This document shows positions 14,237-41,112 of a stretch of 52,854 nucleotides of DNA, in pieces. Position 1 is the first letter of the stretch, and each line of letters begins with the position of its first letter. The notes beneath the pieces were generated by a model, which worked only from the letters and a program-made list of their open reading frames with translations, had not been told where the DNA came from and searched no databases. Position numbers and translations under genes: made by a program. The stretch spans positions 1 to 52,854 of the forward strand of contig JAGHDO010000071.1 in assembly GCA_021159885.1 (NCBI GenBank), read 5' to 3'. Source of the stretch: Synergistota bacterium (GTDB taxonomy: Bacteria; Synergistota; GBS-1).

Positions 14237-14323
14237 TGGTGCGAGAGGTGGGATTTGAACCCACACGGCATTATGCCACCAGATCCTAAGTCTGGCGCGT
14301 CTACCAAGTTCCGCCACTCTCGC
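14237..14323 (-). tRNA. tRNA-Leu (anticodon UAG)
   Basis: The acceptor arms GCGAGAG and CTCTCGC pair perfectly, and the 3' end has an encoded CCA. The anticodon loop is CUUAGGA between CAGA and UCUG, giving UAG for CUA/CUN leucine codons. A long variable arm (GGTGGCATAATGCC) marks it as a type II tRNA, as expected for leucine. The T arm is GTGGG-TTCAAAT-CCCAC. It is the last gene of the six-tRNA array before the palindromic hairpin. Confidence 0.95.
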
Positions 14324-14355
14324 AACCACCAGAACTTAATCTCATTCAAAAAAAA

Positions 14356-14433
14356 TGGTGGGTCGTGCAGGATTCGAACCTGCAACCCCCTGATTAAGAG
14401 TCAGGTGCTCTAACCAGTTAGAGCTAACGACCC
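14356..14433 (-). tRNA. tRNA-Lys (anticodon CUU)
   Basis: The acceptor stem is GGGTCGT/ACGACCC with an encoded CCA. The anticodon loop CUCUUAA between CCTGA and TCAGG gives CUU, reading AAG. The D arm and T arm (GCAGG-TTCGAAT-CCTGC) are standard. The UUU isoacceptor, which reads AAA, is not in this window and must be elsewhere. Confidence 0.95.
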
Positions 14434-14448
14434 ACCTCTCTATCCTCT

Positions 14449-14526
14449 TGGGGTGAACGAGGGGACTCGAACCCCCAACCCCCAGGTCCACAGCCTGGTG
14501 CTCTAACCACTTGAGCTACGTTCACC
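14449..14526 (-). tRNA. tRNA-His (anticodon GUG)
   Basis: The acceptor stem GTGAACG/CGTTCAC is extended by an encoded G at position -1 opposite C73, the identity element of histidine tRNA. An encoded CCA follows. The anticodon loop CUGUGGA between CCAGG and CCTGG gives GUG. The given span includes the G-1 residue. Confidence 0.95.
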
Positions 14527-14545
14527 ATATAAAAAATTTATTAGA

Positions 14546-14622
<77 letters not shown>

Positions 14623-14636
14623 ACCCTCCTACTTTC

Positions 14637-14713
14637 TGGAGCGGGAAACGGGATTCGAACCCGCGACCCTCGGCTTGGAAGGCCGATGCTCTAGCCACCT
14701 GAGCTATTCCCGC
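14637..14713 (-). tRNA. tRNA-Gly (anticodon UCC)
   Basis: The acceptor stem is GCGGGAA/TTCCCGC with an encoded CCA. The anticodon loop CUUCCAA between TCGGC and GCCGA gives UCC, for GGA and GGG codons. The T arm GCGGG-TTCGAAT-CCCGT is normal. Confidence 0.95.
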
Positions 14714-14728
14714 TCTTTTTCAAAGAAC

Positions 14729-14806
14729 TGGTCGGGGCGAAAGGATTCGAACCTTCGGCCCCCTGCTCCCAAAGCAGGTGCGCTAACCAAGCTGCGCCAC
14801 GCCCCG
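14729..14806 (-). tRNA. tRNA-Pro (anticodon UGG)
   Basis: The acceptor stem is CGGGGCG/CGCCCCG with an encoded CCA. The anticodon loop UUUGGGA between CCTGC and GCAGG gives UGG, reading CCN. It is the first gene of the array, with its 5' end about 10 bp downstream of a near-consensus -10 element. Confidence 0.95.
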
Positions 14807-31462: not shown

Positions 31463-31496
31463 TTAAGGCGGGGGGTTAAATATCCCTCCGCCTTAA
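31463..31496. terminator. terminator hairpin between convergent ackA and arcA
   Basis: The arms 31463-31475 (TTAAGGCGGGGGG) and 31484-31496 (CCCTCCGCCTTAA) pair over 13 positions with one G-U and an 8-nt loop. The right arm lies in the last codons of arcA and the stop codon falls in the loop. On the minus strand the hairpin is followed by CCCTTTTATT, a moderate U-tract; on plus there is none. It best serves the long livJ-arcA transcript and may also stop ackA. Confidence 0.65.
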
Positions 31497-32690
31497 TGGC
31501 AAGGTCATACATCTGGGACCCCCTCTTCCCCTAACGAGCTCCGCACCTTCTATCTCAAGCACTCTGATTCCTGCTTTGCGAAGCTCCTCATTTGTCTTCT
31601 CATTCCTGGCATAGGTTATAACCACACCGGGAGCTAATGCAAAGGTGTTAGTCCCATCGTTCCACTGTTCTCTACCAGCTATCACCGTGTCTCCCCCACC
31701 GGTATATATAATCTCCGATTCACCTAAGCCAAGAGCCTCCTCAATTGAAGAAATAAGATCCTCTTTCATGGTTATCGTTATATCTCCATCCTTATTCAGG
31801 GTTAGCTCGAAAACTCTCATCCTATCAAGCGTAAACGGGTAAACTACAAATACACCCCAATCTACCATAGTGAATACGGTATCCAAGTGCATAAAAGCTC
31901 TCCTCTTAGGAATCTCTATCGCTAAAACCTTTTTAAACCCTCCATACTTAAACAGCCTTCTTGAGACCCTCTCAACTGTTGCAGGAAGTGTCCTTTCGCT
32001 ACAACCTATAGCGACCGTATCGCTCGAAAGAACGAGAATATCTCCTCCTTCCACGGTATAAGGAAACACATCATCTTTATCTTTCCCGAACCAAAAGTTA
32101 ATCGGATCTCTCCTAAAAAGAGGATGATTCTCAAAAACATACTTAAGATAAAGAGGCTCTCTGCTCCTGGCAGGATGCTTCATCGAGCTTATGATAACGC
32201 CATTGCCAACAATAGCAGCAGGATCCCTCATAAAATAAAGATTTGGGAGAGGCCTTATATAAAAGTCGTTGTCAGATCTCATAAGTGCCGATAATCCAAG
32301 CTCTGAAAGCTGTACCTCTCTCTTGTAAATACCGCCGATCAGGACGTCCACAAGTCTCTCCGAAGGAAGCTCCATTAAATAGGATGCAAGATAATTAGAC
32401 GTTCTTGGATTAAAGAGCTCTAATCTTACAACATCCGTTATAAGTGATCTCCTTGTCTCTTCATCATGCAATATATCCTTAAGCAGATCCTCTATATAGT
32501 AAACCTCTACTCCTTCCTTTCTCAAAAGCTCCGCAAAACGATCATGCTCCTGTTGGGCTCTCTTAAGCCAAGGAATATCATCGAATAGAAGAATATCCAT
32601 ATTCTCAACTGTGAGTCTCTCAAGCTCCTTACCAGGCCTGTGAAGCATAACCGCTTCTAAGGTTCCTATCTCGGAAAAAACCCTCAGCAT
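31476..32690 (-). CDS. arcA: arginine deiminase
   Basis: The 404-aa guanidino-group-modifying enzyme has LHRPGKELERLTVEN at the N-terminus, FMRDPAAIVGNGVIIS, the His-Asp motif MHLDTVFTMVD and the active-site cysteine C394 in GRGGPRCMTLPL. It hydrolyses arginine to citrulline and ammonia, the first step of the deiminase ATP-generating route. No ornithine carbamoyltransferase or carbamate kinase gene is in the window. The ATG overlaps the stop of the PP2C/HATPase/STAS fusion by 7 nt, so the enzyme is translated as the last gene of a signalling run, an unusual position for arcA. Confidence 0.93.
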   Translation of the reverse strand: MLRVFSEIGTLEAVMLHRPGKELERLTVENMDILLFDDIPWLKRAQQEHDRFAELLRKEGVEVYYIEDLLKDILHDEETRRSLITDVVRLELFNPRTSNYLASYLMELPSERLVDVLIGGIYKREVQLSELGLSALMRSDNDFYIRPLPNLYFMRDPAAIVGNGVIISSMKHPARSREPLYLKYVFENHPLFRRDPINFWFGKDKDDVFPYTVEGGDILVLSSDTVAIGCSERTLPATVERVSRRLFKYGGFKKVLAIEIPKRRAFMHLDTVFTMVDWGVFVVYPFTLDRMRVFELTLNKDGDITITMKEDLISSIEEALGLGESEIIYTGGGDTVIAGREQWNDGTNTFALAPGVVITYARNEKTNEELRKAGIRVLEIEGAELVRGRGGPRCMTLPLRRRDI

Positions 32691-34669
32691 TCTTTATCAC
32701 CATCCAGTAAATCTTCCAATCCCATGGTCTTTAAAACTCTTTTAACCTCGTCCTGCCACCTCACAAATGATATTTCGATTCTCCTCCTCTCAGCTTCTCT
32801 CTTGAGCTCCATCAGTGCTTGAATTCCCTTAACATCTATAAAGTTTATTCCAGACATATCTATACGCAACCGCTTAGGTCTATACCTGTGGAGAATTTCC
32901 TCAACCTTGCATTTTATTAGAACTGCTTTTGCGTGATTTAGCTTTCCGCGTGGATGATATTCAACGAGATCTTTCTCTATGCTCACCTCCTCTTTTCGAA
33001 ATTTCTTAACGAGAACCACTTCATTACCCGGAGGAATGAAGTAAAGATCATCCATGACCGCCCTCATTATAGAGATCCCTCTGCCTCCCTCACGCAGAGA
33101 AGTTTCATCCCTTGCAATTTCCTGAAAATTGAATCCTTCGCCTTCATCCCTAACGCTAATCTCAAGCATTCCCTTATCGTAATCCCAAAGAGCTTTTATA
33201 AAAACCTTTTTATCAATCCTTCCTGAATTACCATGAAATATAGCATTTAATATAGCCTCATTAAGAGCGAGTTTTAAATCATAAATATCCTCTGCGGAAA
33301 AACCAAGTTCATCAGCCTTAGTGAGTATCGGTGCTATAGACGTCCTTATATTCTCTATACTGCTTGGAATAACAGTCTCGTAAACGTCAATATTTCTCCT
33401 TGTATCAAGCTTGCTTAAACCGACTATAAATAGCGTTATATCGTCCCGAGGAGCTTTTCCTTCCATAAATTTCTTAACCCTTTCCTTAATGATTTCAGAT
33501 ATAAAGGTAATATCGAGCTTTCCTTCCACAGAAATCAGCTCTTTAAGCAGGTTTTTTAAACGCTCCTCTCCAAAGAATTCCCCCTCGGGAGATAATGCTT
33601 CGATAAGCCCATCTGTGTAAAGGAGAACACACTCTCCATCTTCTAAAAAGACTTCTTCTTCAGGATACTCAAGTAGACTTGACAAAACTCCAAGAGGAGG
33701 TCCACCCGTCTTTACCTCGACTATTCCAGTCTTTTTCAAAAGTATGGGAGGCAAATGCCCTCCAACCGCTATCTTACCCCTGCCATCCGGAAGAAGGGCA
33801 AAGATTGCCATCGTTACGAATCTGCCAAGCTCCTCAAATAAGCACATCATCTCATTCAGCTTAGCAAGTAGCTGTCCAGGGGAAGAAACAACCCTAACGA
33901 GAGCCGATATAGCCCCTTTAAGCATCGCAGTCAGGAAAGCTGCAGGAACTCCCTTACCGGAAACATCAGCTATAACACCTATGATAGAACCATCACTCAT
34001 AGGAAAAATATCATAATAATCTCCTCCAACAATCCTCGCAGGTTCAAACCACGCACTTAACCGAAAGCGTCCCTCCTTGGGAAGCGAGGAAGGTAATATC
34101 GCTCGTTGAATATCTGAAGCAACTCTTATTTCAAGTTCCAGCTTTTCCCTCTCTCTGCGCTCCTTAAGAAGATCCTGTCCTTTTAAAACAGCACCTGTCA
34201 TGAGAGCGAGAGCATTTAGGATCCTCGCATCGTGCGCCATAAAGGGTTTGTTCTCTTTTCTTCCGAGGATTATGACACCATAGACTTTGTCCACATGATA
34301 AACAGGTATAACTATGAAATGCTTCCAAGGAACTCTCTCTTCATTACAGTCGTTGAATATAACCACATCTCTAACCTCAAGAGCCTCCTTAAGATACTCT
34401 TTAACGCTGTCCGTGAGAGTAAACTCGATATCACCTATTGTATCTCTTAACACTATATCCCCGTTTTCAGAACAACAGGAGAAAACGTAATCCACATCAG
34501 GGTAGAGAGAAAAAAAGAGATTTCTAAGCTCATAACAAGCTTCCTCCCTTGAGGAAGTAAAGAGGTGAGGAAGCTTTTGAGCGAAGTCGTAAAAGAGATT
34601 AACCTCCTCATAAAGATTTGCCAGTTCATCAAGCGCAAGGTAAAGCTCTTCCTCACTCTCCCCCCGCAT
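32684..34669 (-). CDS. GAF - PP2C phosphatase - HATPase - STAS fusion, single-chain partner-switch protein
   Basis: The 661-aa protein combines four modules: a GAF-like domain (about 20-165), a RsbU/SpoIIE-type PP2C phosphatase (about 183-418), a RsbW-type histidine-kinase-like ATPase (about 430-560) and a C-terminal STAS domain (about 570-655). Phosphatase motifs are GGDYYD (D217, D221), ADVSGKG (D235), YTDGL (D353) and RDDIT. The ATPase has the N-box LALNEAILNAIFHG and RDEGEGFNF. In the STAS domain the phospho-Ser position of SpoIIAA-like proteins is K614 (FIDVKGIQAL), so it probably cannot be phosphorylated there. It overlaps the receiver gene by 17 nt. The target may be a sigma factor or another partner. 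Confidence 0.9.
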   Translation of the reverse strand: MRGESEEELYLALDELANLYEEVNLFYDFAQKLPHLFTSSREEACYELRNLFFSLYPDVDYVFSCCSENGDIVLRDTIGDIEFTLTDSVKEYLKEALEVRDVVIFNDCNEERVPWKHFIVIPVYHVDKVYGVIILGRKENKPFMAHDARILNALALMTGAVLKGQDLLKERREREKLELEIRVASDIQRAILPSSLPKEGRFRLSAWFEPARIVGGDYYDIFPMSDGSIIGVIADVSGKGVPAAFLTAMLKGAISALVRVVSSPGQLLAKLNEMMCLFEELGRFVTMAIFALLPDGRGKIAVGGHLPPILLKKTGIVEVKTGGPPLGVLSSLLEYPEEEVFLEDGECVLLYTDGLIEALSPEGEFFGEERLKNLLKELISVEGKLDITFISEIIKERVKKFMEGKAPRDDITLFIVGLSKLDTRRNIDVYETVIPSSIENIRTSIAPILTKADELGFSAEDIYDLKLALNEAILNAIFHGNSGRIDKKVFIKALWDYDKGMLEISVRDEGEGFNFQEIARDETSLREGGRGISIMRAVMDDLYFIPPGNEVVLVKKFRKEEVSIEKDLVEYHPRGKLNHAKAVLIKCKVEEILHRYRPKRLRIDMSGINFIDVKGIQALMELKREAERRRIEISFVRWQDEVKRVLKTMGLEDLLDGDKEC

Positions 34670-35039
34670 CTTTCAACCCCTTAAGAAGCCTTTTAACAAT
34701 TGTTTCAAGCTTTACAGGACTAAATGGTTTGAATAGAAAATCCACGACACCCAAGCTCTTCATCTCATCGATCATTGACCTCTCCCCTACCGCTGTTAAA
34801 ACAAGAACAGGTATATTCTTATACTCATCATATCTCCTAAACTCTCTCATAAATGAGGGACCATCCATTTCAGGCATCATTATATCCAACAATATAAGAT
34901 CGGGTTTCTCCTTCTTTAATAGATAGAAAGCCTCTTTTCCATTAGAAGCCTCCAGGACCCTATATCCCCTTTTCGATAGAATATGATTTACTAATCTCCT
35001 TAAAAGCGGGGAATCGTCAACGACGAGAATCGTAGCCAT
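34653..35039 (-). CDS. stand-alone response-regulator receiver protein (CheY-like)
   Basis: The 128-aa protein is a receiver domain only: acidic pocket D8/D9 in VVDDSPLLRR, phospho-acceptor D52 in LILLDIMMPEMDG, the switch Thr in VLVLTAVGE and the conserved Lys in FLFKPFSP. No output domain is attached. It lies between a STAS protein and the GAF-PP2C-HATPase-STAS fusion, so it probably passes a histidine-kinase signal to that phosphatase, as in RssB/RsbU-type modules. The cognate kinase is not in the window. It could instead serve chemotaxis, but its location argues against that. Confidence 0.9.
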   Translation of the reverse strand: MATILVVDDSPLLRRLVNHILSKRGYRVLEASNGKEAFYLLKKEKPDLILLDIMMPEMDGPSFMREFRRYDEYKNIPVLVLTAVGERSMIDEMKSLGVVDFLFKPFSPVKLETIVKRLLKGLKDAGGE

Positions 35040-35048
35040 GGCTATAAA

Positions 35049-35387
35049 CTAAAACGAACTAAGTGCCTCTTGCTCATCATCAAAGAATTCAAATACTCTG
35101 TTTAGCCTCGTCAGTTCGAAAATCCTCTTAACCTGCGGCGAAAGAGGACCCAAGATCTTAAGATCTCCCCCCTCCTTTCCAACCTTCCTTAACCCAGATA
35201 TAAGGATTCCCAAGCCCGTTGAATCTATGTAGGTGGTCCCGCTTAGATCAACGATAATTTTCACTCTTCCTTCATTTATCTCCCTCAGCATAATATCGCG
35301 AAGGTCGCCCGCCGTTTCCACGGAAACCTCCCCATCAACCCTTATTACAGATATCACGCCTTTTCTCTCAAGGCTCACTCCCATCAT
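35049..35387 (-). CDS. STAS-domain anti-sigma-factor antagonist (RsbV/SpoIIAA-like)
   Basis: The 112-aa single STAS domain begins with a short strand (GVISVIRVDGEVSVETAGDL). It carries the signature IIVDLSGTTYIDSTGLGIL, in which S56/T57 occupy the phosphorylation position of SpoIIAA/RsbV. It is therefore a plausible substrate of the RsbW-type ATPase module and of the PP2C phosphatase encoded two genes downstream. The start lies 3 nt after the ARPP-1-type gene, and either of the two initial ATGs is possible. Confidence 0.92.
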   Translation of the reverse strand: MMGVSLERKGVISVIRVDGEVSVETAGDLRDIMLREINEGRVKIIVDLSGTTYIDSTGLGILISGLRKVGKEGGDLKILGPLSPQVKRIFELTRLNRVFEFFDDEQEALSSF

Positions 35388-35390
35388 TTC

Positions 35391-36311
35391 TCACCTCACT
35401 TTAAAAAGGGAAAGATGTACCAACTTGTCTTCAAGCAATAAGACTTTTCCCAAAAGTTTAACCCCATCGCCAAACCTCAGTTCCACCCCACACCCTATCG
35501 AGGGATAGCTCCTCACCCTCGAAAAAGTAAGCGAGGAAATAAACCTCCTTACCCTCTTGAGCGAAACGGAGGAACTCCCCCGTGTAAGGAGCCCCTCCAT
35601 GAGATAACTCTTTATTAACTTCCTTAGCATTCTCGAAAGGATCTTACTACTCCCGAAAAGATCGATAGCTATGAGAGCTGGCGTTTCTATTATAAAGCCA
35701 GAAAATTTCTCCTTCAAGCCCTCCGCCTCGCTTGCATAACGCTCTATCTCATCCTTAAGGTTATCGTACGCATCATGAAAAGAAGAAGTTCTCGATGAAA
35801 TCCGAAGGCTTGATAGGGCATCCCTTATCGAATTCCAGAGCGAGCGCTGATCAGACCTATATCCCTTGTTTTCCTGAAGCGATCTATTAACCCCACTACA
35901 TAGTAAACTACGCAATGAGGGATTGAGCATAGTTCCTCCCGGGATAAAGGAATTTCCTCCCCGCCATCTTCCTTCCTCAACGCAGGAAACCGGTAATCTA
36001 TAAGATCTGCCGGGTTCAAGCCAAACCGAGGTATTAGATACTCTATTCTGATATGCGCCTAATAGCTCCTCTCCGTCCAAGAGAAAGATAGGGGTATTAG
36101 AAAAATTCTCAAAGATAACAGTATCAACGCGAGGAGGATCAAGCTCTTTAATAGAGAATCTCCCTTCCTCAAGCGCGATAGGTAAATTTTCCTCAAGACT
36201 ATCCGGTACCTTTATGGGATAAACAACAAGGTTTCTCAGGAAGAAAGGCTCTTCAAAATCGATATCTTTCTTAAGACTCTCCAAGATACGCTTTCCGTAC
36301 TCTATCATCAT
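35391..36311 (-). CDS. ARPP-1/DUF6569-type protein
   Basis: The 306-aa protein resembles the ARPP-1 (DUF6569) family: NLVVYPI near the N-terminus, then PIFLLDGEELLGAYQNRV and LPVSCVEEGRW (residues 74-115). A serine-rich helical middle and a C-terminal strand region (GCGVELRFGDG) follow. The biochemical role of the family is not established, as far as I know. The gene starts 41 nt inside the end of livF and is followed after 3 nt by the STAS gene, so it links the amino-acid transporter to the signalling genes. Family assignment is from remembered motifs and should be checked by profile search. Confidence 0.7.
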   Translation of the reverse strand: MMIEYGKRILESLKKDIDFEEPFFLRNLVVYPIKVPDSLEENLPIALEEGRFSIKELDPPRVDTVIFENFSNTPIFLLDGEELLGAYQNRVSNTSVWLEPGRSYRLPVSCVEEGRWRGGNSFIPGGTMLNPSLRSLLCSGVNRSLQENKGYRSDQRSLWNSIRDALSSLRISSRTSSFHDAYDNLKDEIERYASEAEGLKEKFSGFIIETPALIAIDLFGSSKILSRMLRKLIKSYLMEGLLTRGSSSVSLKRVRRFISSLTFSRVRSYPSIGCGVELRFGDGVKLLGKVLLLEDKLVHLSLFKVR

Positions 36312-36975
36312 TCAGCAAATCTATACCAAGTCCCTCCATAACTATTCTTCCCGTTTCGAGAACGTATCCATAATGAGCTATCTTCAGGGCAGCACGGGCG
36401 TTTTGCTCTATAAGAAGTATGGTTCTACCTTCATCATTTATCTGTTTTATAACCTCGAAGACTTCCTTTACAAGTAGAGGAGCCAAGCCAAGCGAAGGTT
36501 CATCCATCATAAGAAGACGTGGTTTACCCATGAGAGCTCTTCCAAGAGCGAGCATTTGTTGTTCTCCCCCCGAGAGAGTTCCCGCTTTCTGCCATATCCT
36601 CTCTCTGAGTCTCGGAAAGAGCTCAAAAACCCACTGAAGGTCCCTTTCTATTCCCTCTTCATCGGTTCTGGCATACGCTCCCATTTTCAGGTTCTCCATA
36701 ACCGTAAGATTAGGAAAGACTCTTCTTCCTTCGGGAACCATTGCCACACCCATTTGGACTATCTCATGAGTAGACTTGCCAAGAATCTCTTTTCCATCAA
36801 ACTGTATAGAACCCTCAGCATCTACAAGCCCACAGATAGCCCTTAAAGTCGTCGTCTTGCCAGCACCATTTGCACCTATAAGCGTAACTATCTTCCCATG
36901 AGGAACCTCAAAGCTTATTCCTTTAAGAGCATGAATTCCCCCATAATAAACGTGCAGATTTTCAACCTTAAGCAT
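36271..36975 (-). CDS. livF: branched-chain amino-acid ABC transporter ATP-binding protein LivF
   Basis: The 234-aa ABC ATPase has Walker A LIGANGAGKTTTLRAICG, the LivF-type MGVAMVPEGRRVFPNLTV, signature TLSGGEQQMLALGRAL and Walker B LLMMDEPSLGLAP, with the switch His replaced by the LivF-typical LLIEQN. It energises the LivHM permease. The ATG overlaps the livG stop as TAATG. The 3' end is overlapped by 41 nt by the ARPP-1-type gene, so transcription continues into the signalling genes. Confidence 0.95.
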   Translation of the reverse strand: MLKVENLHVYYGGIHALKGISFEVPHGKIVTLIGANGAGKTTTLRAICGLVDAEGSIQFDGKEILGKSTHEIVQMGVAMVPEGRRVFPNLTVMENLKMGAYARTDEEGIERDLQWVFELFPRLRERIWQKAGTLSGGEQQMLALGRALMGKPRLLMMDEPSLGLAPLLVKEVFEVIKQINDEGRTILLIEQNARAALKIAHYGYVLETGRIVMEGLGIDLLNDDRVRKAYLGES

Positions 36976-37745
36976 TACTCCTCAGCCTCCCCTAAGTAAG
37001 CCTCTATTACTTTTGGGTTCTTTTGTATGGCCTCCGGGGGACCTTCCGCAATACTTATTCCATGATCTAAAACCCTGATCCTCTCACATATTCCCATGAC
37101 AACCTTCATATCGTGCTCTATGAGGAAAACGGTTAAGCCAAAATCATCACGTATCATCCTTATAAAATCCATAAGGTCCTGCGTTTCCTGAGGATTCATT
37201 CCCGCAGCGGGCTCATCCAGCAGAAGCAGCTTGGGATGAGTTGCAAGCGCTCTTGCTATCTCAAGTCTTCTCTGCTGACCGTAGGGAAGCCCACCAGCTA
37301 TAAAGTCCTCGTACTCTAAAAGTCCGAGCTTCGAGAGAAGTTCCCTTGCCTCTTCAACCATCTTTTTTTCCTCTTTCTTATAGTTGGGGCTTCTAAAAAC
37401 CGCTTTAAAAATGTTAGATTTGAGCTGATAGTGAAACGACGCCATAACGTTATCCAAAACGGTTAGCTCTTTAAAAAGCCTTATATTCTGAAAAGTTCTC
37501 GCTATGCCTCTTGTTATTATGTAATTGGTCGATTTACCAGTTATATCTTCCCCGTCAAAATATATTTTACCAACTGTGGGAACATACACTCCGGTTATCA
37601 TGTTGAAAACCGTAGTCTTACCTGCTCCATTGGGACCTATAAGACCAACAAGCTCCCCTTTTCTAATTTCTATGTTAAAATCATTTACGGCTCTTAATCC
37701 TCCAAAGTCCATCGTTACGCCCTCAAGCTTCAGTAGCGCTTCCAA
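36975..37745 (-). CDS. livG: branched-chain amino-acid ABC transporter ATP-binding protein LivG
   Basis: The 256-aa ATPase has Walker A LIGPNGAGKTTVFNMITG, the LivG motif GIARTFQNIRLFKELTVL, GLPYGQQRRLEIARALA as signature, LLLLDEPAAGMNP as Walker B and FLIEHDM as switch. It pairs with LivF. The start is TTG inside the 3' end of livM (23-nt overlap). All motifs are intact. Confidence 0.95.
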   Translation of the reverse strand: MEALLKLEGVTMDFGGLRAVNDFNIEIRKGELVGLIGPNGAGKTTVFNMITGVYVPTVGKIYFDGEDITGKSTNYIITRGIARTFQNIRLFKELTVLDNVMASFHYQLKSNIFKAVFRSPNYKKEEKKMVEEARELLSKLGLLEYEDFIAGGLPYGQQRRLEIARALATHPKLLLLDEPAAGMNPQETQDLMDFIRMIRDDFGLTVFLIEHDMKVVMGICERIRVLDHGISIAEGPPEAIQKNPKVIEAYLGEAEE

Positions 37746-38823
37746 CGTCTTTCACCCCCTTAAGAGGGTATATCTTATTGATTATAAAGTCCCATGAAAG
37801 CTCTTTCCTTCCCATTAGCCCCCTTTGCCAGTAAAGCATTATGAATATGAGCAACAGAGAAAAAACGACCATTCTCATACCCGGTATTCCAGGAATATGG
37901 ACGGGTCCTATATCCATCGGGCTTTCCACCGAGCGTAGCATCTCTGAGAGAAGAACGAAGATAAAAGCTGCAATTGCAGATCCCGTAAAGCTTCCCAATC
38001 CTCCGAGAACTATTATTATAAGAAGGTTAAATGTAAAGAAGAAAGAAAACAGCTTGGGATCTATGGTTCCGAGAAGCGAGGCAAGAAGACCCCCACCTAC
38101 TCCCAGGAAGAAACCCGCCAGGGTTAGAGCAAGAAGCTTGTGCTTCTTTATGTCTATTCCCACAGCTTCAGCTGCTATCTCATCCTCTCTTATAGCTTCA
38201 AAAGCCCTTCCATAGCTTGATGTCCTAAGCCACCTCATGAAAAAGTATGTAAAGAAAGCCCACCCCCACGTCCAATAGAGATTAACATAGCCTGGTATAT
38301 CCTTCAGCCCCAGAGCCCCATTCGTTACAGATATTAGATTGCTCGCAAGAACCACCATTATCTCTCCAAAACCTAAGGTAACTATGGCAAGATAATCTCC
38401 TCTTAGCTTAAATGAAGGAATCCCAAGAAGATAAGCAGCTACCGCTCCTATTATACCAGCCAGAATAAGCGAAGGCAAAAATGGCAGACAGATGGAATTA
38501 AGAGGCCATATCAGCGGCTGAATTATGAAAGCAAGTGCCTTTTTCTGAACCGGCATGGTAAGCAGGGCAACTGTATATGCCCCCAAAGCTATAAAAGCAT
38601 TAGGACCTAACATAAACTGCCCTAAGGTACCGTTTACAAGGTTATAAGCCATCGCCATCGTCATATAGACAGCAGAAACATTTAGAATCCTTATAAAATA
38701 TGGATCCAGAAAATCATCCGCCTTTGAGAGAAATATAAAGAAAAGGGTTAAAAAAGCAACGTTTAATATTATCCTCAACCGCTTTCTCTTTTGAAGTATG
38801 AGCTCTCTCTCCATCGCAGTCAT
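37723..38823 (-). CDS. livM: branched-chain amino-acid ABC transporter permease LivM
   Basis: The 366-aa membrane protein has about ten hydrophobic segments. It shows the LivM landmarks GDYLAIVTLGFGEI, SSYGRAFEAIREDEIAAEAVG with IDIKKHKLLAL (the EAA-type loop contacting the ATPases) and IIIVLGGLGSFTGSAIAA. It forms the translocation path with LivH. ATG at 38823 and a second ATG three codons later are both possible starts. Confidence 0.94.
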   Translation of the reverse strand: MTAMERELILQKRKRLRIILNVAFLTLFFIFLSKADDFLDPYFIRILNVSAVYMTMAMAYNLVNGTLGQFMLGPNAFIALGAYTVALLTMPVQKKALAFIIQPLIWPLNSICLPFLPSLILAGIIGAVAAYLLGIPSFKLRGDYLAIVTLGFGEIMVVLASNLISVTNGALGLKDIPGYVNLYWTWGWAFFTYFFMRWLRTSSYGRAFEAIREDEIAAEAVGIDIKKHKLLALTLAGFFLGVGGGLLASLLGTIDPKLFSFFFTFNLLIIIVLGGLGSFTGSAIAAFIFVLLSEMLRSVESPMDIGPVHIPGIPGMRMVVFSLLLIFIMLYWQRGLMGRKELSWDFIINKIYPLKGVKDVGSATEA

Positions 38824-38829
38824 CCCCCA

Positions 38830-39723
38830 TCACACCTTTTCCTTCATGGATTCTCCAAGAAGCCCGGTTGGCTTAAAAAGAAGTATGATTATTAAAAGAG
38901 AAAAGGCAATCGCGTCTCTATATCCAGCTATCTGAGGCATGAAAGCAACTATAAGAATCTCCGCCATTCCAAGTATAAAGCCTCCCAACATAGCACCGAA
39001 GACGTTTCCTATTCCCCCGAAAACCGCAGCTATAAAGGCCTTTAAACCCGGCATTATTCCCATATAAGGGTTGATTTGGGGGAATTTTACAGCCCACATT
39101 ATTCCTCCTGCAGCAGCCAGAGCAGATCCAACGGCAAAGGTAATTGATATCACTTTATCAACGTTTACGCCCATTAGGCTCGTCGTCTCGAGGTCCGTTG
39201 CGACGGCTCTCATAGCCATTCCTACCTTAGTTTTATAAATTAGATATATTAAGCCAACGAGAAGTATGCCTGCTATTATCGGAATCCATATGGTAAAGGA
39301 AACCAGATAAATGCCCCTTATGTTCATCCCTATATCAAATATGTGAGGACGTGGAAACGCCTTAGGGCGGCCTCCATATACCACAAGAGCTATACTCTCC
39401 AGGAAGAAAGAAACACCTATGGCAGTTATTAGAGCAGAAATTCTTGGAGCTCTTCTCAAGGGTCTGTACGCTCCAACGTAAGTTAGAACTCCGAGGAGAG
39501 CCGTTAGCGCAACGGCTATTATCCATGAAATCTCCCAAGGAAGATGAAACATGAGTATACCGAAGTAAGCAAAGTAGCACCCCATCATCATAATATCGCC
39601 ATGGGCAAAGTTTATTAGCCTTATAATTCCATAAACCATCGTATAACCTATTGCAACCAACGCATATAAACTACCTAAGGATATTCCATTAGCTAACTGT
39701 TGAAGAAAATCAGTTAGATCCAA
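38830..39723 (-). CDS. livH: branched-chain amino-acid ABC transporter permease LivH
   Basis: The 297-aa permease begins DFLQQLANGISLGSLYALVA with GYTMVYGIIRLINFAHGDI, the clear LivH opening. It contains GMAMRAVATDLETTSLMGVN (ATPase-contact loop) and IAAVFGGIGNVFGAMLGG. It has eight or nine transmembrane helices. The start is TTG preceded by AAGGAGG. It follows the livJ hairpin and overlaps nothing, with 6 nt to livM. Confidence 0.95.
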   Translation of the reverse strand: MDLTDFLQQLANGISLGSLYALVAIGYTMVYGIIRLINFAHGDIMMMGCYFAYFGILMFHLPWEISWIIAVALTALLGVLTYVGAYRPLRRAPRISALITAIGVSFFLESIALVVYGGRPKAFPRPHIFDIGMNIRGIYLVSFTIWIPIIAGILLVGLIYLIYKTKVGMAMRAVATDLETTSLMGVNVDKVISITFAVGSALAAAGGIMWAVKFPQINPYMGIMPGLKAFIAAVFGGIGNVFGAMLGGFILGMAEILIVAFMPQIAGYRDAIAFSLLIIILLFKPTGLLGESMKEKV

Positions 39724-39759
39724 CTTTAATCCGCCTCCTTCGGCAGAAAGTCAATAATT

Positions 39760-39795
39760 TTCCGGTGGCTTCTCCTGCAAGAGAAGCCACCGGAA
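39760..39795 (-). promoter_or_regulatory. 15-bp stem-loop between livJ and livH
   Basis: TTCCGGTGGCTTCTC (39760-39774) and its exact complement (39781-39795) flank a 6-nt loop. On the minus-strand transcript it follows livJ and is trailed by AATTATTG, a poor U-tract. Such hairpins often protect the 3' end of binding-protein mRNA and cause partial termination, so that LivJ is made in excess of the permease. That role is inferred. Confidence 0.6.
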
Positions 39796-39854
39796 GAAGA
39801 TTAACAATAGCCAATTCTATGCAACCATCCCACCTCTAAGTCTCCCTCTTCTCC

Positions 39855-40976
39855 TTAAGGATTAACAGTAGTCACATATACAAACTTACCATTCTTCACA
39901 GTCTGAATAACCGCTGCCTTAATGGCATTGTGATTCTTATCGAACTTAAACACGCCGGTAACTCCCGCAAAGCTCTTTATACTTTCAAGAGCATCCCTTA
40001 TCTTCTCAGGATCCGTGCTCTTAGCCTTCTTAATAGCGTGAATTACAACGAAATAGGCATCTGCTGCGAGAGCTCCAAGAGAGTCAGTATTCTTATTGAA
40101 CTTCTTATGATAAGCCTTAACGAATTCCTTACCGAGCTTGGTGGAAACACCGCCCTCATCGTAATGATTCGTGAAGTAGATGCCTTCCACAGCCTTACCA
40201 CCTATCTTAATAAGCTCCGGAGCATAAGCACCGTCTCCTGAGAGGATATAAGATTTAACGCCAAGCTCACGAGCCTGCTTAGAGAAGAGGGCAATTTCAG
40301 GATAATACCCAGGAATGTAAATGACATCTGGTTTTTTAGCCTTAACAGCGGTAACCTGTGCGGTAAAGTCCTGATCACCGGTCCTGTACATAACCTTAGC
40401 AACTATCTTCCCACCAAGCTTCTTAAACGACTCTTCGAAGAACTTGGCCAAACCAACGCAGTAGTCCTGCTGAACATCCATGACTATTGCAGCCTTACGC
40501 GCCTTAAGATTGTTGTAAGCGAACTTAGCCGCTATCTTACCCTGGAATGGATCGATAAAGCAAACACGGAAGACATACTTCTTACCCTGTGTCACAAGCG
40601 GATTCGTCGAAGCAGGAGACACCATGGGAACGCGATACTTCTCAGCAACAGGTCCTCCTGCTAATGAAACGGAGCTACAAACGGCACCTATAATAGCACA
40701 GACCTTATTATACTTAATAAGCCTCTCAACAGCGTTCGCTCCCTCTACCTTATCTCCCTTATTATCAACGAGGAAGAGCTTGACCTGCTTGCCCAAGACG
40801 GTGGGATACATTTCATGAGCTACCTGGAGACCATTCCAGCTCATCTGACCAAAGGCAGCTACCGGACCGGTCATCGGAAGATATACACCAATTCTGACCT
40901 CATCAGCTGCCCACGCTGCAGAAAAAAGACCGAGGATTAAGGCAACCCCCGTTAAAACTACCAGCAGACGCTTCAT
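39855..40976 (-). CDS. livJ: branched-chain amino-acid ABC transporter substrate-binding protein LivJ/LivK
   Basis: The 373-aa exported protein starts MKRLLVVLTGVALILGLFSA, ending in a cleavable site near AWAAD. A Leu/Ile/Val-binding-protein fold follows: VRIGVYLPMTGPVAAFGQM, AIIGAVCSSVSLAGGPVAEK, PMVSPASTNPLVT and YEVIIIPGYY-type lobes. It would capture a branched-chain or other hydrophobic amino acid outside the inner membrane. I chose the second ATG (40976), which sits 7 nt after GGAGG; the ATG two codons upstream abuts the ribosome binding site. It is the first gene of the long run ending at arcA. Confidence 0.95.
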   Translation of the reverse strand: MKRLLVVLTGVALILGLFSAAWAADEVRIGVYLPMTGPVAAFGQMSWNGLQVAHEMYPTVLGKQVKLFLVDNKGDKVEGANAVERLIKYNKVCAIIGAVCSSVSLAGGPVAEKYRVPMVSPASTNPLVTQGKKYVFRVCFIDPFQGKIAAKFAYNNLKARKAAIVMDVQQDYCVGLAKFFEESFKKLGGKIVAKVMYRTGDQDFTAQVTAVKAKKPDVIYIPGYYPEIALFSKQARELGVKSYILSGDGAYAPELIKIGGKAVEGIYFTNHYDEGGVSTKLGKEFVKAYHKKFNKNTDSLGALAADAYFVVIHAIKKAKSTDPEKIRDALESIKSFAGVTGVFKFDKNHNAIKAAVIQTVKNGKFVYVTTVNP

Positions 40977-41023
40977 AAACATCCCTCCTTTAATTGAAGA
41001 ATTTTAAAGGTTCTACAAGCCGT

Positions 41024-41052
41024 ATTTTATATTTAAATCTAATTCAAGTCAA
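41024..41052 (-). promoter_or_regulatory. promoter of the livJ-to-arcA operon (TTGACT, 17 bp, TAAAAT)
   Basis: On the minus strand TTGACT (41047-41052) and TAAAAT (41024-41029) are separated by 17 bp. The predicted start is near 41017, about 40 bp ahead of the livJ ATG. It lies just downstream of the terminator that ends the respiratory-complex operon. No second convincing promoter is seen between livJ and arcA. Confidence 0.8.
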
Positions 41053-41073: not shown

Positions 41074-41112
41074 AAAAATAAAAGCTCTCCCCTCCCTTAA
41101 GGGGGGAGAGCC
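41074..41112 (-). terminator. intrinsic terminator after the B-C-D-I respiratory genes
   Basis: On the minus strand GGCTCTCCCCCC, a TTAA loop and GGGAGGGGAGAGC form a GC-rich stem (with a small bulge), directly followed by TTTTATTTTT. It is a strong rho-independent terminator. It separates the respiratory-complex transcript from the liv promoter. Confidence 0.85.

Follow-up and report, generated by a model that had tools for sequence, protein, structure and literature searches.

The window analysed here is a 52,854-nt stretch of DNA from an uncultured Synergistota bacterium. At positions 31476-40982 it carries a run of 10 intact genes, all on the minus strand, identified from open reading frames and all with assigned Pfam domains; the gene list and strand given in the initial annotation are therefore borne out. 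The run begins with a complete set of liv importer genes in the usual order, one binding protein, two permeases and two ATPases. These are livJ, encoding a substrate-binding protein of the branched-chain amino-acid type (39855..40982; Peripla_BP_6, 211.6 bits; 72-75% identity in relatives), the permease genes livH (38830..39723; 81-83%) and livM (37723..38823; 77-79%), both with BPD_transp_2 domains, and the ATPase genes livG (36975..37745; ABC_tran and BCA_ABC_TP_C; 80-82%) and livF (36271..36975; ABC_tran, 280 bits with the LivF model; 83-85%). The set matches the known LivJHMGF importer in content and order but scores below the NCBIfam equivalog cut-offs, and the branched-chain substrate is putative. 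It is followed by a gene for an ARPP-1 protein (PF20208; 35391..36284), a stand-alone STAS protein (35049..35387; STAS, 69 bits) that aligns with SpoIIAA and RsbV, a stand-alone receiver (REC) of 128 aa (34653..35039; Response_reg, 108.6 bits), a multidomain protein of 661 aa (32684..34669) that resembles an RsbU-RsbW-STAS fusion, with SpoIIE (PP2C), HATPase_c_2 and STAS domains by Pfam after a possible sensor region, and arcA, encoding an arginine deiminase (31476..32690; ADI, 396 bits).

The spacing of these genes is tight. Only livJ and livH are well separated (131 nt); livH-livM lie 6 nt apart, and livM-livG and livG-livF overlap by 23 and 1 nt. After the livF-ARPP-1 junction, ARPP-1-STAS and STAS-REC are separated by 3 and 9 nt, while REC-fusion and fusion-arcA overlap by 17 and 7 nt. 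Spacing of the kind seen at these last four junctions is typical of co-translated genes. The overlap between livF and ARPP-1 is 41 or 14 nt, depending on the start of ARPP-1. The larger value, from which it had been argued that the signalling genes are no chance neighbours, rests on a start codon that the relatives lack: ATG 36311 falls within the Asn-Asp-Asp codons of livF, and the equivalent frame in G001, one of three family relatives (G001 to G003) compared with the window's own genome (G000), is broken by a stop. A TTG or GTG start giving an overlap of 11-14 nt is kept in all four family genomes, which makes TTG 36284 (14-nt overlap) the likely start in the window, with ATG 36311 also possible. 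The overlap alone is insufficient for the argument, but the link of ARPP-1 and REC to the importer is kept in all three relatives.

A sigma-70-type promoter (TTGACT-17-TAAAAT, 10/12 matches in the scan) precedes livJ at 41024..41052 on the minus strand, where the initial annotation had placed one, and a similar TTGACT-17-box can be read before livJ in G001 and G002. Just before this promoter, a strong terminator-like hairpin (41083-41112) follows the upstream hydrogenase genes and is predicted to isolate the liv promoter. Promoter-like sites in the region as a whole are not enriched (21, against 18.5 in shuffled sequences). At the other end of the run, the hairpin reported after arcA is present on the minus strand near the convergent acetate kinase gene ackA (31463..31496; 12 pairs, about -19.6 kcal/mol, z -3.7) but has a weak T tail, and it was not among the sites listed by a terminator scan of the region. 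The initial annotation overlooked a much stronger hairpin between livJ and livH (CCGGTGGC...GCCACCGG; 39760..39795, minus strand; -30.4 kcal/mol, z -6.2). This hairpin is kept in all four family genomes with an invariant CCGGTGG/GCCACCGG core, and in three of the four a T-rich stretch comes after it, a feature much weaker in the window. These properties point to a leaky terminator or an element that stabilises mRNA, which would give unequal mRNA levels, and they make one uniform transcript of the run doubtful. From ARPP-1 to arcA, no terminator-like element stands out.

Comparison with the three other genomes of the family (98%, 99% and 77% complete for G001, G002 and G003) divides the run into two parts. 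The order livJHMGF-ARPP-1-REC is found in all four genomes, with livJ of G003 cut by a contig end, and constitutes the conserved core of the family. In G001-G003, the livH-M-G-F products are 77-85% identical to those of the window, and ARPP-1, at the same place, is 50-54% identical. The receiver is 51-64% identical to that of the window; in a pairwise comparison its identities to the window copy (52-64%) are as high as those among the relatives themselves (50-59%). In every relative, the copy beside ARPP-1 gives the best match to the window receiver. As this sub-order recurs in three of three relatives, the tie of ARPP-1 and REC to the importer is not due to chance. Across the four genomes, ARPP-1 and REC (50-64% identity) have diverged far faster than the liv proteins (77-89%).

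The second part, consisting of the STAS, fusion and arcA genes, appears from these comparisons to be lineage-specific. In the relatives REC directly follows ARPP-1 with nothing between, and downstream of REC lie a tRNA gene and rpoB (G001) or cstA (G002, G003). Genome-wide, none of the three has an ADI-family match or a homologue of the multidomain fusion. The SpoIIE and STAS models gave zero matches in G001 and G003, although with a single family model for STAS, weak STAS domains could escape; absence from G003 is also weaker evidence, given its lower completeness. Among 188 genomes of the phylum, including the window's own, no full-length relative of the fusion reached E 1e-35, and the matches extend over PP2C or PP2C plus kinase only (27-38% identity). 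This absence from the phylum sample leans towards a gain of the extra genes here rather than a loss elsewhere. The initial annotation had named gene order in close relatives as one point on which its proposal would stand or fall: none of the three has the complete order, while livJHMGF-ARPP-1-REC is present in each of them. The whole layout is accordingly lineage-specific and not an established system. G002 does possess a different partner-switch set on another contig (C6, 19387-21572), with two STAS ORFs, an RsbT/W-like kinase and a HATPase-PP2C protein, which resembles a stressosome set.

The added part is known from a single assembly of 93 contigs, the one available genome of its genus. An assembly chimera was considered and rejected, as was a foreign origin by composition. 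The flanks on the cstA and arsA side match G002, and in G+C content and codon use arcA and the genes for the fusion, STAS and REC fall within or near the range of their neighbours; an assembly join is therefore unlikely.

ARPP-1 is assigned with confidence, scoring 211 bits against a curated Pfam cut-off of 27, and its structure model is confident as well (pLDDT 92.7). A fold search gave no PDB or viral match below E 0.001, and by sequence there was likewise no solved relative. The literature treats the family as predicted enzymes with a conserved Cys and Gln and a predicted action on ribose-containing molecules (PMC9503650). These absolutely conserved residues are present in the window protein, where Q88, C110 and E112 are among the residues invariant in 24 ARPP-1 sequences. 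The suggestion that ARPP-1 is the target or ligand sensor is thus unsupported, the protein being instead a member of a known family of predicted enzymes. The accessible part of PMC9503650 gives genes for ADP-ribosylglycohydrolase, HIRAN, WYL and deacetylase proteins as neighbours, and the named ARPP-1 loci reproduced the ADP-ribosylglycohydrolase and HIRAN neighbours in our analysis. The window copy differs in standing between liv and a receiver gene, a position that is not among the contexts given there. A defence system was also considered and rejected: PADLOC gave no match for ARPP-1, STAS, fusion or arcA, and only weak receiver-type matches for REC. In another family of the phylum (loci L039, L040 and L041), ARPP-1 lies apart from liv and REC, and its neighbours at L039 resemble exonuclease, MoxR-type and DUF58-type genes. 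ARPP-1 has so far mainly been discussed in ADP-ribose and defence settings; here its setting is housekeeping-like, each family genome examined having it directly behind the amino-acid importer and ahead of a receiver, and this steadiness makes a metabolic role of ARPP-1 testable.

The STAS and fusion proteins have the features of a partner switch. The fusion shares the PP2C, HATPase and STAS order, after an N-terminal region, with Rv1364c of M. tuberculosis (PAS-PP2C-kinase-STAS), which is also its best PDB match (3ke6, E 9e-16). Its kinase boxes N, G1 and G2 are intact (NEAILN 470, DEGEGF 508, GGRGIS 528), and its PP2C metal-binding aspartates (D217, D235, D353 and D409/D410) are invariant in 15 aligned proteins. 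Of the domains proposed initially, PP2C, HATPase and STAS are confirmed, but the GAF domain is tentative, scoring 25.0 bits against a Pfam cut-off of 28.6; residues 1-168 of the structure model mostly have a pLDDT below 50 and no GAF fold was recovered, the core domains being modelled with moderate confidence. The fused STAS of Rv1364c is phosphorylated on Ser600 (PMC9138534). The corresponding position of the fusion, within FIDVKG, is Val613 and not a serine. Two genes upstream of it lies the gene for the separate STAS, which has Ser56 in a D55-S56-T57-G58 motif that aligns with the DSSG of SpoIIAA. By these motifs, the free STAS is likely to be the substrate of the fusion. The two are also probably a cognate pair: they contain the only two STAS matches of the genome, the fusion has its sole SpoIIE domain, and the four other HATPase_c_2 matches belong to histidine kinases or a CBS-HATPase protein, so that the pair appears self-contained. 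What makes this added part of interest is that nature here pairs a single-chain kinase/phosphatase, unphosphorylatable at the usual site of its own STAS, with a free STAS that is phosphorylatable.

In the HsbR-HsbA system of Pseudomonas and the CrsR-CrsA system of Shewanella, a STAS protein acts together with a phosphatase/kinase and a receiver function and takes one partner or another according to its phosphorylation state, as HsbR-HsbA shows (PMC6482189). In those systems the response regulator is itself the partner-switch protein, whereas the receiver of the window is a separate 128-aa protein, not fused to the PP2C-kinase, and is kept in the family without the switch; there is also no linked sigma gene. 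In the receiver, D8, D9, D52, T82 and K104 are present. Its earlier grouping with the phosphatase/kinase genes does not hold in that form, as REC stays with ARPP-1 where that set is absent, and it must have another role. The window has no sigma gene, and the six sigma region-2 matches of the genome are all on other contigs. We also found no sigma-F link for the fusion, which together with the tentative type of its N-terminal sensor sets it apart from Rv1364c. A sigma factor specific to this genome was rejected as the target: the candidates, a pair of small sigma factors 91% identical to each other (contigs C85 and C60, loci L103 and L106), have orthologues in the switch-less G001 and G002, one in each (79%). 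This pair may reflect a recent duplication or a strain mixture. Stressosomes consist of an RsbR and RsbS scaffold plus the RsbT kinase; such a complex was rejected for this genome, whose two STAS matches are just the short RsbV-like protein and the domain within the fusion.

ArcA matches solved arginine deiminases down to E 2.5e-103 and retains the catalytic residues D156, E214, D217, H268, D270 and C394 by motif; it lies just below the cut-off of TIGR01078 (464 against 489) and above that of PRK01388. For the arginine deiminase pathway (arcA, arcB, arcC), the genome has arcA, a full OTC, which is found in all four family genomes, and a carbamate kinase, which is above cut-off in this genome only. 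Since carbamate kinase, like arcA, is confined to it, the pathway appears lineage-specific. Unlike in arginine deiminase pathway clusters, arcA here is apart from arcB, arcC and arcD, and the carbamate kinase gene lies elsewhere, beside an amidohydrolase-type gene. Contig C46 (locus L127, 1-16000) is a perfect inverted duplication with arms of at least 4.86 kb and no mismatch, most likely an assembly fold-back artefact; it carries the carbamate kinase gene, which for this reason shows up twice.

With this in mind, we tentatively favour, at somewhat less than an even chance, a liv (HAAT)-type import operon extended at its downstream end in two steps, with a switch acting on the free STAS and with import and arginine breakdown co-expressed. 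In a first step, shared by the family, ARPP-1 and a single-domain receiver would have been placed after livF, translationally coupled to the importer; in a second, confined to this lineage, STAS would have entered between ARPP-1 and REC, and the PP2C-kinase-STAS fusion and arcA after REC. The livJ promoter would transcribe the operon when there are amino acids to be imported, and because of the livJ/livH hairpin there would be more livJ message than message of the other genes. The HATPase of the fusion would phosphorylate Ser56 of the free STAS and its PP2C would remove the phosphate, while the fused STAS, carrying Val at the phosphosite, would serve for docking or autoregulation. In its unphosphorylated form, the free STAS would then bind an unlinked partner, possibly an enzyme or else a sigma or anti-sigma factor, and REC may bias the switch in trans. 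Import would thereby be co-expressed with the breakdown of arginine to ATP and ammonia. Gene content, order, conservation and motifs are observed, and transcription, substrate, partner choice and output are deduced.

The same data can be read in other ways. The switch pair and arcA may simply have settled downstream of the older genes, with their own expression signals and a role unrelated to transport. Their absence at this place in the relatives, the variation of the genes after REC within the family (tRNA and rpoB, or cstA) and promoter-like sites inside the run that are no rarer than chance would all fit such accretion; with the short overlaps and gaps typical of co-translation, and no prominent terminator-like element from ARPP-1 to arcA, we consider it rather unlikely. 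It is less probable still that STAS and fusion came with arcA as a local switch of energy metabolism, regulating arginine deiminase or its ATP-yielding pathway, with REC and ARPP-1 as mere neighbours. Here arcA, fusion and carbamate kinase all occur in this genome and in none of the family relatives, fusion and arcA overlap by 7 nt, and acetate kinase is convergent next door. Against this, the carbamate kinase gene lies beside an amidohydrolase-type gene elsewhere, and the arcA loci examined in other genomes of the phylum (roughly 4 kb each) have none of the signalling or liv genes of the window nearby.

The circuit of the initial annotation, in which import, nutrient sensing and arginine breakdown are under one partner switch with ARPP-1 as sensor or target, draws on gene proximity and on the conservation of ARPP-1 and REC with liv, but it is improbable: ARPP-1 and REC persist without the switch, no evidence ties STAS to ARPP-1, and ARPP-1 is, according to PMC9503650, a predicted enzyme, with Cys110, Gln88 and Glu112 invariant. 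Of the joint control envisaged there, the link of ARPP-1 and REC to the importer holds, while the switch and arcA are lineage-specific and give no sign of acting on the importer or ARPP-1. One may also speculate, at very long odds, that the free STAS, by way of serine phosphorylation, switches ARPP-1 or the importer and that the fused, non-phosphorylatable STAS is a competitor built into the system; if true, ADP-ribose or another sugar-linked metabolite handled by ARPP-1 would be tied to amino-acid uptake.

The novelty of the locus is a conserved liv-ARPP-1-REC core plus a lineage-specific extension of partner switch and arcA, and a single control circuit is only partly supported. Our literature search found no paper joining arginine deiminase, an anti-sigma antagonist and branched-chain amino acid. 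Elsewhere in the window, six tRNA genes lie in a row on the minus strand (14240-14806).
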